From Brachyspira hyodysenteriae ATCC 27164 (GTDB lineage: Bacteria > Spirochaetota > Brachyspiria > Brachyspirales > Brachyspiraceae), in NCBI RefSeq assembly GCF_001676785.2, contig NZ_CP015910.2, positions 1,984,001 through 2,048,000 on the forward strand: DNA of 64,000 bases. The letters run 5' to 3'. The translations under genes were made by a program, and so were the position numbers. Under the pieces are notes generated by a model. The model had not been told where the DNA came from. It was given only the letters and a program-made list of their open reading frames with translations, and ran no database searches. Shown piece after piece: positions 47,124 through 63,500 of this stretch (position 1 is the first letter of the stretch; every line of letters starts with the position of its first letter).

Positions 47124-47675
47124 TTAATAAAAATTAACTTCAATACCTAATATATTTTTCATATAATTATTCCAAGAATTTTCTGATAAAACATTAGAAG
47201 TATGTATAAATTGATTAGTATATAATTTATCATCAACTTTTGAAAAAATAGGTAAATAATGTTCCAAATCTTTACGCATATTTCTTAATATCGCATTAGA
47301 TATTTTATCAGGCATAGAAACAATAACATAATAATGTATATTGCTTTCTAATTTATTTGATGAATATTCTCTTATAAATGTATCTCTTGCTTTTTGTATA
47401 CAATCATAGATGTATGAATGTCCATTTTCTGGTTTTCTATATACAAATTTTGAAAAGAAATCTTTTCTTTCTTCTTCTGTTTGAAGTGATAAATATTTTT
47501 TATTATAATTTTTTACTTCAATAAAAACAATTATATTATTAACATATACAATAAAATCAACATTCTTCATAAAATGAGTATAATTAGAATTCTCATCATC
47601 TATTTTTCTTACAGTGATATTAGAATTATTATCATAAATCATTTTAAAATTACTTTTTTCTTCAAATATTTCCAT
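47124..47675 (-). CDS. Putative PD-(D/E)XK nuclease, partner of the ATPase upstream
   Basis: 183 aa from the ATG at 47675, 2 bases after the ATPase stop; a TTG two codons earlier would overlap that stop. A core resembling restriction-type nucleases is seen: hydrophobic strand with Asp (VDFIVYVNN, D40) then strand IIVFIEVKNYN (E53, K55), the D-x(n)-E-x-K pattern. Downstream helices are rich in charged residues. No signal peptide. The pairing with an OLD/AAA-type ATPase is the layout of several two-gene phage-defence systems. Function and motif reading are inference; the family is not named. Confidence 0.5.
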   Translation of the reverse strand: MEIFEEKSNFKMIYDNNSNITVRKIDDENSNYTHFMKNVDFIVYVNNIIVFIEVKNYNKKYLSLQTEEERKDFFSKFVYRKPENGHSYIYDCIQKARDTFIREYSSNKLESNIHYYVIVSMPDKISNAILRNMRKDLEHYLPIFSKVDDKLYTNQFIHTSNVLSENSWNNYMKNILGIEVNFY

Positions 47676-47677
47676 AA

Positions 47678-48724
47678 TCAATTTTTAAATGCTTTTTCTA
47701 TAGATTGTAGATGCTGTTCTTCAAATTTATCTTCTATTGAATTATGCTGTATATTATTTAAATATTCACTGCTTTCAATTAATACACCATTCTTTTTATC
47801 TTCATCAAAATAAAAAGAATGAAACTTTATTTTATCATTTTCTTTTCTTTGTAATTCAAAATCTTCTATAATAAAATTATTATGTGTAGCTAAAAATATT
47901 TGAACGCCTAATCTTGATAAACTTAGTAATATTTCAACTAAAACTCTTGTAAGTTTAGGATTTAAATTTGATTCAGGTTCATCAAAAAGAAGTATAGTAT
48001 CTTTATCTATCTCACCATTTTTTATAAGAAGCCAAAGCAAAGCAAGTTTTTTATGCCCTTCTGCCACCATTGTAAACTGAACTTCACCAAAATCTTTATA
48101 CTTAATAAAAAATACTTCATCTTTTTGGATAACGATTCCGCCTATTGCATTTTCTATTTTTTTTGTAATATCTTCTAAATACGGATCTAATTCTCTTAAT
48201 TGAGGCACAAAAGCCTTATTTAAAATATCATAGTAGACAGATTCAAAAGATACTTCCCTTTTATTGTATAATGAAATAAAACCTTTTGAATTAGTTAAAA
48301 TATCTTTGCATGGTATGTATGTAATTTTTTTATTAAATGGAAAAATATTCATTTCTTTTAAATAAAGATTAAACGAGTCAATAGTAGAAGCCTCATCTAA
48401 ATTATTAGCATATTCATCAACTAACATTGAAAAAGGTTTAAAAAATATATGTTTATTAAAAATAATTTCCCAGATTTTTAAAGGAAGATAATTACCAGAT
48501 ACAGAATCTATATTATCTAATGGAAAATGACTGCCAGATAATGCAGAATAATATGTTGGATTTTTTACATCATAGAAAGATTCATTTAAACAATAAATAG
48601 CTTTAAGTAAATGAGTTTTGCCTGTTCCATTCTTGCCAATAAATATGTTAACTCCTTTACTGAAGTCTGTATAGCAATCCTTAAATACTGTGAAATTATT
48701 TATACGAACATTTTCTACATACAT
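47678..48724 (-). CDS. AAA/ABC-type ATPase (OLD/AAA_15-like), defence-cassette candidate
   Basis: 348 aa from the ATG at 48724, preceded by GGAG at the right distance; in-frame ATGs further up lack one. Walker A FIGKNGTGKTHL (30-37), a VAEGHKKLALLWLL segment acting as signature, Walker B ILLFDEPESNLNP and His switch FLATHNNF. This is an SMC-like single-chain ATPase, as found in OLD, RloA or AriA proteins. No TOPRIM domain is seen at the C-terminus, so the effector is probably the next gene. It sits between psuG and the S9 peptidase, which are housekeeping genes, so it is an insertion-like pair. Confidence 0.75.
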   Translation of the reverse strand: MYVENVRINNFTVFKDCYTDFSKGVNIFIGKNGTGKTHLLKAIYCLNESFYDVKNPTYYSALSGSHFPLDNIDSVSGNYLPLKIWEIIFNKHIFFKPFSMLVDEYANNLDEASTIDSFNLYLKEMNIFPFNKKITYIPCKDILTNSKGFISLYNKREVSFESVYYDILNKAFVPQLRELDPYLEDITKKIENAIGGIVIQKDEVFFIKYKDFGEVQFTMVAEGHKKLALLWLLIKNGEIDKDTILLFDEPESNLNPKLTRVLVEILLSLSRLGVQIFLATHNNFIIEDFELQRKENDKIKFHSFYFDEDKKNGVLIESSEYLNNIQHNSIEDKFEEQHLQSIEKAFKN

Positions 48725-48774
48725 ATTAAAATACTCCATTATCAATATCGGAGTTAACATTATTAAAAATTATA

Positions 48775-59161: not shown

Positions 59162-60205
59162 ATGACAGATAATATCAATAACAGTGAAAATTCAAATGAA
59201 ATAAGCAGTGAAATAGCTAATGCCAGCAAGGATTTACAAGCCATATCAGAAGCTTCAAAAATGGCTCTTGATGTTGTAAATGCTATAAAAAATGAAATAA
59301 AAAAAGTAATTATCGGACAGGAAAACATGCTCGATAAACTTCTATTAGGAATTATATGTGATGGGCATGTATTGTTAGAAGGAGTACCTGGACTTGCAAA
59401 AACATTAACTGTAAAATCATTGGCAAGCACAATAGATGCAAGTTACAAAAGAATACAGTTTACACCAGATTTGCTTCCTGCTGATATAGTTGGTACTGAA
59501 ATTTATGACATAAAAAATTCAGTATTTCTTCCTAAACAAGGACCTATATTTTCTAATATAATATTGGCGGATGAGATAAACCGTTCGCCTGCTAAAGTAC
59601 AGTCAGCACTTTTAGAGGCAATGGGAGAACATCAGGTTACTATAGGAGATAAAACATACAGACTTCCTGATGTATTCTTAGTATTAGCAACTCAAAACCC
59701 TATAGAACAAGAAGGAACCTACCCTCTTCCAGAAGCTCAGGTTGACAGATTTATGCTTAAAGTTATAGTAAAATACCCTACTAAAAGTGAAGAAAAAACT
59801 ATAATAAAAAATATGTCATCTTCAAAACCTGCAGAATTAAAGCCTATAACTACAATAGAAACTATAGAAAAATTAAGAAAATTAGCCAATCAAATACATA
59901 TAGAAGAAAGATTGATTGATTATATAGTAAACATTATAGATGCCACAAGAAATCCAAAAGATTATAAACTTCAAAGCGAATACATAGAATACGGAGCTTC
60001 TCCAAGAGCAGGAATATATTTAACTAAAGCAGCAAAAGCAAATGCTATGATGCAGGGCAGAGGATTTGTAATGCCTGAAGATATAAGAGCTGTTGCTTAT
60101 GAGGTATTAAGACATAGAATAAGCGTAAGCTATGAAGCACAGGCTGAAAATGTTAATAGCGATATGATTATAGAAAACTTGCTCGCGAATATCAATGTGC
60201 CTTAA
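59162..60205 (+). CDS. MoxR-family AAA ATPase
   Basis: 347 aa. An N-terminal helical extension of about 35 residues precedes the family core: IGQENMLDKLLLGII, Walker A LEGVPGLAKT, Walker B IILADEINRSPAKVQSALLE, sensor LVLATQNPIEQEGTYPLPE and arginine finger region QVDRFMLKVIV. Typical MoxR length is about 330. MoxR ATPases act as chaperones with VWA-domain proteins (BatA, BatB, DUF58 proteins); none of those is in the window, so this unit is incomplete here. Confidence 0.92.
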   Translation: MTDNINNSENSNEISSEIANASKDLQAISEASKMALDVVNAIKNEIKKVIIGQENMLDKLLLGIICDGHVLLEGVPGLAKTLTVKSLASTIDASYKRIQFTPDLLPADIVGTEIYDIKNSVFLPKQGPIFSNIILADEINRSPAKVQSALLEAMGEHQVTIGDKTYRLPDVFLVLATQNPIEQEGTYPLPEAQVDRFMLKVIVKYPTKSEEKTIIKNMSSSKPAELKPITTIETIEKLRKLANQIHIEERLIDYIVNIIDATRNPKDYKLQSEYIEYGASPRAGIYLTKAAKANAMMQGRGFVMPEDIRAVAYEVLRHRISVSYEAQAENVNSDMIIENLLANINVP

Positions 60206-60284: not shown

Positions 60285-60911
60285 TTAAATCAAAATTTCA
60301 TTATTGTCAGTTATATCATGCTTTATAATATCTAAAGTATCAGAATTAAAAGGGTATATTTTTAAACGTACATTATTGATTATCTTTTTTTTCTTAAACA
60401 AACGTCTCTCATTTATTTCATCTTTCTTCTTATTTGTACTATTATCTGTTTCAGAACAACTTTTAGAATCAATATTATTTTTATACACTAAATGAAAGTT
60501 TATATTTTCTATATCATTAGAATAAGCAAGAAAAATAGCTCTTATTCTCAAATATGCACCTAAAAACTGTTGATGAATCCATTTTAAATCATCATCATGA
60601 ATATCATTTTTTAATTCTATTATATGTAAATCAAATTTATCATTATTATTTTTATTTATGATCACAGCATCAGCACATTTTTTCATATTTAAATGGCTGA
60701 ACTTTCTCTCTCCTTCTATATCTGAACTACAAATAGATTCAGAGCTTAATTTTACATGGCATTCCATATTTGATTTTTCATCTTTTATAATAAAAATATC
60801 TTTTATTACATCAATTTTACACATTGTATTATTAAATAGATATTTTTTTTCACCTTTTTTATTAACTATAAAATCAGAATTATAAAGTTTATTAAAATCG
60901 TCCATAATCAT
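60285..60911 (-). CDS. Putative PD-(D/E)XK nuclease, partner of the second ATPase
   Basis: 208 aa, starting 5 bases after the ATPase stop. Core pattern: CADAVIIN (D81), then DLHIIELKNDI (E99, K101), followed by a helix with a glutamine pair (WIHQQF, Q114-Q115). Asp, ExK and the following Q are the usual residues of restriction-like nucleases. The last third is lysine-rich (RRLFKKKKIINNVRLK), consistent with nucleic acid binding. It does not resemble the nuclease-like protein at 47124 beyond the catalytic pattern. Family unnamed; function inferred. Confidence 0.5.
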   Translation of the reverse strand: MIMDDFNKLYNSDFIVNKKGEKKYLFNNTMCKIDVIKDIFIIKDEKSNMECHVKLSSESICSSDIEGERKFSHLNMKKCADAVIINKNNNDKFDLHIIELKNDIHDDDLKWIHQQFLGAYLRIRAIFLAYSNDIENINFHLVYKNNIDSKSCSETDNSTNKKKDEINERRLFKKKKIINNVRLKIYPFNSDTLDIIKHDITDNNEILI

Positions 60912-60916
60912 TAATC

Positions 60917-62272
60917 TTAATTTATTGCATCATATTCTATAGAGGCATTATTTATATATTTATGAAATGTTTCTATATAAAATCCTGTTTCTCTATCGCC
61001 TTTCAATTCTTTTACGGTTGTAATATCATTGTCATCAGTATCAAATTGATATATTCTAATTTTGTCTATATATATGGTGTCATTTTCAGTATATGAATAC
61101 TCTTTTAATATTTGATTTTTTTTATCCTCATCTTTCATGCTATGAAGAACAGCCATATTATTTATATGTTCTAATATAGTGTCGCTGTGAGTAGATATTA
61201 TTATATTTCTTTTTTTATTAACTAGATTTATTAATACACGAGCTAATTGTTTCTGCAATTTCAAATGCAATGATAATTCAGGCTCCTCTATAAATAAATC
61301 GCCTAAAATAGGATAATATTTTAAAAGTAAATATAATGGAGCAACTTCCGTTATAACAGCAGAGCATAAATGCATAGGTACTTTTAAATCTTTGTTATTA
61401 GGCTGATAGTACATAGCATTTGTTTCTCTATTAAGATTTATTTTACCTTTTAGTATGTTATTTTCAAATATTTCTATTATATCTTTATAATTATCATTTT
61501 CTCTAAAATTATAAGATAAATCTATTAAACTATTAATAAAATCTATAATAGGTTTTTGAAATATAGTTTTTTCTTTTTTATCTTTAATACTAAATTGATG
61601 CATATTTGATATTTTTGATAATTCTTTATATGTTAATAAAAAACCAGTTCTTGATGTAGGTAAAAATTTTAAATCATAGAAAGTATTTTGTAATATATTA
61701 CTAATAATATTTTTAATTAGGAATATATAATCAATATTTTCATATTTAAAACCAGTCATAAAATCATTTTTTTTGTTAATAGCTACATAATTTTGAATAA
61801 TTAGAACATCAAATAAACAATTTGAATAATCAAAATATATACTTTCTAAATTTATTACATTATCCTCATCATTAAAAATAATTTGTAAAATTTCTGTTTT
61901 ATATTTATTTAATAATTGATTTAGAAAATTATAAAATATATTAAGCTCATTTTTTGACAGTAAATGTTTATTATCAGAATCTGAAAAAAAATTCAATATA
62001 TTTTTACCATGATTTATATTCTCATTTATTTTTATATATTTAGTAACTATATTTTGCATTTCTTTATATTCTTCCAAGCTGTAAATAAATTCTTTATCCT
62101 GAAAGATAATATTTACAATATCATCACTATATTTCATCAAGCCGTATATTAATGTCATTAAATAACTTTTTCCGCTGTTATTATCACCTATAAACAATAT
62201 AAGATTAGAAAGTTCTATTTCTGCCTCTTTAATCTTACCGAAATTTTTAATTATTAGCTTGGAATATGACAT
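60917..62272 (-). CDS. AAA/ABC-type ATPase of the second defence-like cassette
   Basis: 451 aa from the ATG at 62272 (AAAGG upstream); a longer frame adds 25 hydrophobic and lysine-rich residues and is rejected. Walker A FIGDNNSGKSYL (29-36), Walker B LGDLFIEEPELSLHLK, His switch IIISTHSDTIL. Between them lies a long low-complexity insertion (N, I, Y, D-rich). A C-terminal part (TVKELKGDRETGFYIETF) may contact the partner. Resembles the ATPases of OLD or AAA_21 type that team up with nucleases. Locally more AT-rich than flgG or MoxR genes, in keeping with transfer. Confidence 0.7.
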   Translation of the reverse strand: MSYSKLIIKNFGKIKEAEIELSNLILFIGDNNSGKSYLMTLIYGLMKYSDDIVNIIFQDKEFIYSLEEYKEMQNIVTKYIKINENINHGKNILNFFSDSDNKHLLSKNELNIFYNFLNQLLNKYKTEILQIIFNDEDNVINLESIYFDYSNCLFDVLIIQNYVAINKKNDFMTGFKYENIDYIFLIKNIISNILQNTFYDLKFLPTSRTGFLLTYKELSKISNMHQFSIKDKKEKTIFQKPIIDFINSLIDLSYNFRENDNYKDIIEIFENNILKGKINLNRETNAMYYQPNNKDLKVPMHLCSAVITEVAPLYLLLKYYPILGDLFIEEPELSLHLKLQKQLARVLINLVNKKRNIIISTHSDTILEHINNMAVLHSMKDEDKKNQILKEYSYTENDTIYIDKIRIYQFDTDDNDITTVKELKGDRETGFYIETFHKYINNASIEYDAIN

Positions 62273-62390
62273 TTTCAAAATACCTTTTTTAATTTGTATT
62301 ATTTTATAATAGAATTTTATCTTTAACAAGTATTTTAATATATACATAAGTAAATATATTTTATCAAAAATAAAATTATATTTTTAATAT

Positions 62391-62436
62391 ATGGGGCTTT
62401 GCCCCATACCCCACTTCTTTTGTTGTCACAAAGAAG
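62391..62436. repeat. Palindromic intergenic element
   Basis: ATGGGGC-TTT-GCCCCAT is a perfect 7-bp hairpin; next to it CTTCTTT and AAAGAAG form a second stem (62414-62436). The GC-rich hairpins differ from surrounding AT-rich DNA, like other dispersed repeats. The whole gap 62273-62705 has no gene; near 62520-62535 there is TTCGCGAA, a further small palindrome. Confidence 0.45.
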
Positions 62437-62705
62437 CAAAAAGACTGCATTTTTGACCTAAAATTATGGTATTATCATTATTAAATACATATTCTTAAAA
62501 ATTAAGCTGTAATATGTGCATTTTCGCGAAGCGTGTAAAAAAAGTAGATAATATTAATATATTTATATAGTTTTGAAATAGTTTTAATGTAAAAAAGCAT
62601 TTAAATAACTTAACATAATATTTTTTATATAAATTCTAATAAAGCAATTTTTGTAATTACCGAAGATATAATATAATAAATTTATAAGATAATGGAGTGT
62701 ATTAT

Positions 62706-63500
62706 ATGGTACGTTCTTTATGGACAGCTGCAAGCGGTATGAATGGTATGCAGTTCAAAACTGATACTATAGCCAATAACCTTGCAAATGTTAATACTAT
62801 AGGATATAAAAAAGTTAGAGCTGATTTTGAAGATTTAATATATCAAAACTTAAAAATACAAGGAACTCCTGCTACAGAAGACACTGTAACACCTGTAGGA
62901 CTTCAAACAGGACTCGGTGTAAAAAGTGCTGCTACTCAAAAAATGTTTGATCAAGGTTCTTTACAGGCAACAGGAAATAAACTTGATTTAGCATTAGAGG
63001 GAGAAGGATTCTTCCAAGTATTAATGCCTGACGGAAGTGTTTCTTATACTAGAGACGGTTCTTTCAAAATTGATGCTAACGGTCAATTAGTTACTTCTAA
63101 TGGATACAGATTAGTTCCTGAAATAGTATTTCCTGAAAATTTCTTGGTAGAGCAGATAAGCATATCAAGAGAGGGTGTTGTTTCTGTGAAAATAGGTGAT
63201 GAAAATGATCCTGTAGAAATAGGACAAATTACACTTCATAGATTCATAAATCAGCCTGGACTTTTATCTATAGGTGATAACTTATATAAAGAAACTATAG
63301 CAAGCGGACCGGCTTTTGAAGGCGAACCAGGTGCTAATGGATTCCCAAGAATTCACCAAGGTTTCGTTGAGATGTCAAATGTTAAAGTTGTTGATGAAAT
63401 GGTTGATATGATAGTGGCTCAAAGAGCTTATGAAATGAACTCAAAAGCAGTTCAAACTAGCGATAACTTACTTGCTACTGTTGTAAACTTGAAAAGATAA
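62706..63500 (+). CDS. flgG: Flagellar basal-body rod protein FlgG
   Basis: 264 aa from the ATG at 62706, with GGAG 9 bases upstream; the GTG at 62697 is discarded. Distal rod protein, here of the periplasmic flagella. N-terminal MVRSLWTAASGMNGMQ and DTIANNLANVNTIGYKK, middle ALEGEGFFQVLMPDG and YTRDGSFKIDANGQLV, and C-terminal HQGFVEMSNVKVVDEMVDMI with IVAQRAYEMNSKAVQT-SDN. All standard. Other rod genes are not in the window. Confidence 0.96.
   Translation: MVRSLWTAASGMNGMQFKTDTIANNLANVNTIGYKKVRADFEDLIYQNLKIQGTPATEDTVTPVGLQTGLGVKSAATQKMFDQGSLQATGNKLDLALEGEGFFQVLMPDGSVSYTRDGSFKIDANGQLVTSNGYRLVPEIVFPENFLVEQISISREGVVSVKIGDENDPVEIGQITLHRFINQPGLLSIGDNLYKETIASGPAFEGEPGANGFPRIHQGFVEMSNVKVVDEMVDMIVAQRAYEMNSKAVQTSDNLLATVVNLKR

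Follow-up and report, generated by a model that had tools for sequence, protein, structure and literature searches.

Does the window, i.e. the whole stretch of 64,000 nucleotides from the 3.07 Mb genome of Brachyspira hyodysenteriae ATCC 27164 that was analysed here, carry a second ATPase-nuclease cassette besides the pair at 47-49 kb, and what might such a cassette do? A preliminary description made from the sequence had proposed an ATPase with the motifs GDNNSGKS, FIEEPELS and STHSD, directly followed by a 208-aa protein with D81, E99, K101 and a Q-Q pair. We found both open reading frames with all of these motifs, on the minus strand, in the order ATPase then nuclease-like gene and with five bases between them, and refer to them as genes A and B (Table 1). 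The best explanation is a two-gene anti-phage defence in which an OLD-ABC ATPase would act as sensor and a PD-(D/E)xK nuclease as effector, most likely with an abortive outcome (probability about 0.66).

Table 1. Features of the window discussed in the text (positions count from the first letter of the window).
Feature	Position	Strand	Remarks
First pair, PADLOC candidate HEC-02	47124-48760	-	HEC-02A 2e-89, HEC-02B 2e-19
MoxR-family ATPase gene, bordering the variable site	59162..60205	+	97-100% aa identity in closest relatives
Gene B, predicted PD-(D/E)xK nuclease effector	60285..60911	-	208 aa; E66, D81, E99, K101, Q114-Q115
A-B spacer	60912..60916	-	5 bases; in relatives stop and start overlap as TAATG
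Gene A, OLD/ABC-type ATPase, putative infection sensor	60917..62272	-	451 aa; ATG at 62272
Motifs of gene A			Walker A GDNNSGKS ~aa 29-36; Walker B FIEEPELS ~aa 327-332; H-loop STHSD ~aa 360-364
Imported segment of A, variable insert	61225..62134	-	aa ~46-349; change-point scan; donor lineage close to G010
Hairpin-forming interspersed repeat upstream of A	62385..62560	.	45 matches in own genome; DNA fold z = -4.1 vs shuffles
flgG, at the opposite border of the variable site	62697..63500	+	98-100% aa identity in closest relatives

Gene A encodes an ATPase of the OLD/ABC type in which the Walker A, Walker B and H-loop motifs are all intact, and residues K35, E330 and H362 of A are invariant among the 23 ATPases compared. 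An alternative in-frame ATG is present at 62347, and the alignments of homologues begin at 62272. The Pfam search assigned A to PF13175 (AAA_15, 6.8e-22). Among the PADLOC models, PD-T4-4_A matches nearly the full length of the protein (aa 5-445, 2.8e-40), followed by PDC-M47A (6.3e-30) and by the AriA model of PARIS (2.8e-25). Structural matches of the AlphaFold2 model of A (pLDDT 72) are the retron Eco8 ATPase, Gabija GajA, Septu PtuA, OLD and UvrA, and further RecN and SMC heads. In a phylogenetic tree of 23 ATPases the A proteins of Brachyspira form one clade together with a protein from another spirochaete (G131) and two (pro)phage proteins (L145 and L147), and the sister of this clade, with a support of 100/100, comprises the PD-T4-4/PDC-M47-like ATPases of plasmids, a Vibrio phage and another spirochaete. 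This tree contains long branches and is rooted at its midpoint; an earlier version with very long outgroups was redone without the worst of them.

For gene B the motif had been the starting point, and the pattern D-x(10-25)-[DE]xK also occurs in 31 of the 49 other open reading frames of the window (7 of 49 if E and a trailing Q are required). As the pattern is this frequent by chance, the motif alone is no evidence for B and the evidence comes from its conservation across homologues. E66, G67, F71, D81, I97, E99, Q115 and R122 do not vary among 17 homologues, and D81, E99 and Q115 are likewise invariant in 21 homologues with identities down to ~21%. The expected conservation of the D-ExK residues thus holds for D81 and E99 and only in part for K101, which is replaced by S or T in one Brachyspira sub-branch and is a K otherwise. 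This sub-branch consists of L046, L047, L050, L037 and L038, all of which retain D and E. In the AlphaFold2 model of B, which is of moderate confidence (pLDDT 72), D81 precedes one strand and E99 and K101 lie at the end of the next, followed by a helix with Q115 and R122 and another strand, which is the order of PD-(D/E)xK folds. Foldseek alone gave no match to this model at E < 0.001. VIA-align retrieved mostly PD-(D/E)xK enzymes, among them Card1, BsmI, Bse634I, HamA, McrC, Can2 and NucC, with Z scores of ~4-5.5 that are each weak singly. The sequence of B from the window searched alone against Pfam, NCBIfam and PADLOC gave no convincing match to a model, apart from a weak HSDR_N_2 match over B in Pfam. 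B as a TOPRIM/DUF4435 protein was rejected, as neither B nor its homologues gave such a match in Pfam or PADLOC.

The decisive link between B and the PD-T4-4/PDC-M47-type nucleases, at the level of predicted relationship, is a profile-profile match. When B was compared by hhalign with ten partners of PD-T4-4/PDC-M47-like ATPases a probability of 92% (E 5e-7) was obtained, and 88% (2.7e-6) with a wider alignment, for which reversed or column-shuffled controls reached at most 0.2%. The ten partners share an invariant D, K and Q as well as a D/E in register, and D81, E99, K101 and Q115 of B align to their D, D/E, K and Q, respectively. The core of B is modelled as PD-(D/E)xK type and B is predicted to be a nuclease. 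That B might be catalytically dead, or a non-nuclease partner merely resembling the fold, could be argued from the exchanged K101, the chance frequency of the pattern and single fold matches with Z at most 5.5, but seems quite improbable given the invariance of D81, E99 and Q115 over such distant homologues and of the K throughout the PD-T4-4/PDC-M47-type set.

Comparison with known systems places the pair, as far as can be judged from sequence, as a sister branch within the broad WonAB/PD-T4-4/PDC-M47 kind of OLD-ABC ATPase and PD-(D/E)xK pairs. PD-T4-4 (Vassallo et al. 2022, PMC9519451) and the PADLOC candidate PDC-M47 share with it the adjacent arrangement of a PF13175-type ATPase followed by a PD-(D/E)xK-like protein of ~200 aa, the full-length match of the ATPase and the same order of D, [DE]xK and Q in the partner. 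They differ in that the Brachyspira ATPases form a separate clade and that one sub-branch of Brachyspira B proteins is without the K. The PADLOC model PD-T4-4_B matched neither B from the window nor any of 16 homologues, so by the PADLOC definition, taken strictly, the pair does not count as PD-T4-4. PDC-M47B did not match B from the window either and recognised two of 17 homologues (best 2.1e-4, a member of the sub-branch); a search of the own genome with this model returned nothing, nor did its control, so that this search is uninformative. WonAB, described as 'OLD-ABC ATPase + novel REase', resembles the pair by description in its organisation, the OLD-type ABC ATPase motifs and the PD-(D/E)xK effector, and PD-T4-4 is grouped with WonAB by the WonAB paper itself (PMC12137116). 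Unlike WonAB, which is located on a prophage, the pair in the window is chromosomal, with housekeeping genes on either side. PARIS (AriA/AriB) has in common with it an AAA_15 ATPase recognised by the AriA model, but an effector of the AriB type was not found, B being without a DUF4435/TOPRIM match. Gabija and OLD nucleases share the ATPase fold with A, whereas A stops after the ABC ATPase, with no fused TOPRIM nuclease found in the Pfam search, and has a separate PD-(D/E)xK-like partner instead.

The same models also separate the cassette from the first pair of the window, as had been proposed: PADLOC finds PD-T4-4_A/PDC-M47A in one and HEC-02A/HEC-02B in the other, even though both have an ATPase and a nuclease-like gene in the same order. 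The HEC-02B model of PADLOC did not match B, and the best matches of the two ATPases differ. Calling the two pairs unrelated turned out to be right for the nucleases (hhalign probability 0.4%) and too strong for the ATPases, which share the core of the ABC/OLD superfamily only. The first pair is flanked by a prolyl-oligopeptidase-family gene on one side and an indigoidine-synthase-A-like gene on the other.

An HMM search for B was positive in 17 of 26 Brachyspira genomes, with up to three copies each, and in 3 of the 138 genera of a phylum sample. A precedes B in every intact Brachyspira copy that was read through. In the window a GAA two codons before the usual end of A has become TAA, so A is two residues shorter and the overlap of the relatives has given way to the five-base gap. 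Homologous A-then-B pairs outside the genus are located on small plasmids of enterobacteria, in a Bernardetia, on a cyanobacterial plasmid and in a P2-like Vibrio phage, there at the integrase end between repressor and integrase; a tblastn search of B against plasmids gave no match. A further homologous pair is located behind the lysis genes of an IMG/VR prophage (L145, 3986-5911), the B of which matches the Brachyspira B profile in hhalign with 91%. Both genes show dN/dS values of mostly 0.1-0.6, i.e. overall purifying selection. This distribution also bears on whether A and B could be a housekeeping DNA-repair ATPase with its nuclease partner (RecN/Rad50/UvrA-like), as the structural matches of A to UvrA, RecN and SMC heads would allow. 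We regard this as very improbable, since B is missing in 9 of 26 congeners and in nearly all other spirochaetes, homologous pairs are located on plasmids and phages, and the best sequence matches of A are defence families.

At the MoxR-flgG junction itself, where presence or absence across strains had been named as informative, the locus varies between genomes. G000, G003, G004 and G023 carry the cassette there and G008, G012 and G013 lack it, with an unrelated small gene in the gap of the two that were read, G013 and G008. In G011 a relic comprising just the last 28 codons of B is left. In G010, G015 and G016 the cassette lies beside flgG; MoxR is located elsewhere in G010 and G015 and was not found next to the flgG-side cassette in G016. 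No integrase or other defence gene was found immediately beside the cassette of the window, its neighbours being housekeeping genes.

Gene A of the window is a mosaic. Compared to G004, flgG (96.9%), B (96.5%) and the ends of A (94-97%) are highly similar, whereas aa 54-350 of A are just 78.4% identical; compared to G010, flgG (92.7%) and B (88.7%) are more distant and the same part of A is 99.0% identical. In a change-point scan 187 of 190 informative sites inside the segment given in Table 1 favour G010, as opposed to 27 of 161 outside (chi2 244; the highest value among 200 permutations was 17.5). The insert was thus brought in by recombination, its donor being a lineage near that of G010, which is another species; B, both ends of A and the flanks group with a different relative. 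An even more pronounced exchange was observed between G012 and G013 (L037 and L047), which are 100% identical in the N-terminus of A, 98% in its C-terminus and 99% in B, but only 26% in the insert; the flanking DNA matches on both sides, i.e. this is the same locus with a differing insert of ~0.8 kb. Within A, dN is 0.153 for the insert vs 0.027 at the ends, with dS values of 0.36 vs 0.27.

The new finding here is that the insert is exchanged against a constant background of B and the ends of A, and from it we infer that the insert would bear the trigger specificity, with B and the ATPase ends as constant machinery. By this evolutionary pattern the insert would be an exchangeable sensor, and the swaps further suggest that B docks on the conserved ends of A. 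Whether this goes as far as an exchangeable specificity cassette, with the same nuclease re-aimed at new phage triggers by recombining the middle of the sensor and the ATPase ends serving as homology arms, we consider an even bet. The exchange of the insert would then be comparable to that of the target-recognition domains of HsdS in type I restriction systems. Trigger specificity in the insert, with B and the ATPase ends as the constant part, would also agree with WonAB, where WonB has been modelled on C-terminal extensions of WonA (PMC12137116).

From their sequence relationships A and B are very probably an anti-phage system, and by analogy to WonAB an abortive sensor-effector mechanism appears likely. 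A would dimerise via its ATPase ends and, if it forms a complex as suggested by WonAB, hold B inactive or controlled. The variable insert would detect a trigger of infection, an ATP-dependent rearrangement would license B to cut nucleic acid, and the infected cell would most likely cease to grow as a result (abortive infection). Restriction enzymes typically have a PD-(D/E)xK fold, and it is conceivable that B under the control of A itself cuts the DNA of invading phages or plasmids and the cell survives. Such direct restriction would fit the structural matches of B to BsmI, Bse634I and McrC, the resemblance of A to Gabija GajA and OLD and the weak HSDR_N_2 match, but we consider it unlikely, as there is no modification gene beside the pair and as under WonAB phage DNA replicates without degradation of the host genomic DNA (PMC12137116). 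WonAB is a proven abortive infection system in which mutants of the ATPase and K71 mutants of the nuclease lose protection, and an excess of WonB is toxic (PMC12137116). B as a toxic effector and the abortive outcome are both drawn from this system of the same organisation, which makes a phage-sensing ATPase controlling a nuclease effector the most likely reading here as well.

The toxicity of WonB would also suit a toxin-antitoxin or selfish module, in which A keeps the toxin B in check and the pair is maintained through addiction and not for phage defence. The compact two-gene unit with up to three copies per genome and the decay of some copies, with B frameshifted in G004 and broken copies in G004, G007 and G024, are compatible with it. 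We find this improbable nevertheless, since a swapped and fast-evolving insert is not expected of a pure antitoxin and since the authors of WonAB argue against such a simple reading for their system (PMC12137116). Under the preferred reading, an abortive defence with A as sensor, the natural chimeras with unrelated inserts in G012 and G013 point to the position of the sensor and provide ready-made pairs. What WonAB senses has been stated as an open question (PMC12409358), as is the trigger of PD-T4-4-type ATPases, and these chimeras bear on it. The family also widens predicted defence to a genus whose effector escapes the models used here; our literature search found no paper on defence in Brachyspira and nothing on PDC-M47.

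The repeat-like region with GC hairpins that had been described beside the cassette is indeed present upstream of A. As a part of the cassette it was rejected, being a genome-wide repeat. It is also located near flgG in relatives with or without a cassette in view (L065, L059), and as copies lie near the cassettes of some relatives and away from many others we claim no link between the two. In the relative G005 the repeat coincides with contig ends (L058/L059). In L057 (1264-1565) and L054 (1339-1423) the end of the MoxR gene, together with the hairpin downstream of it, is partially repeated in tandem, and these copies are traces of repeated rearrangement at the cassette-free MoxR-flgG junction.
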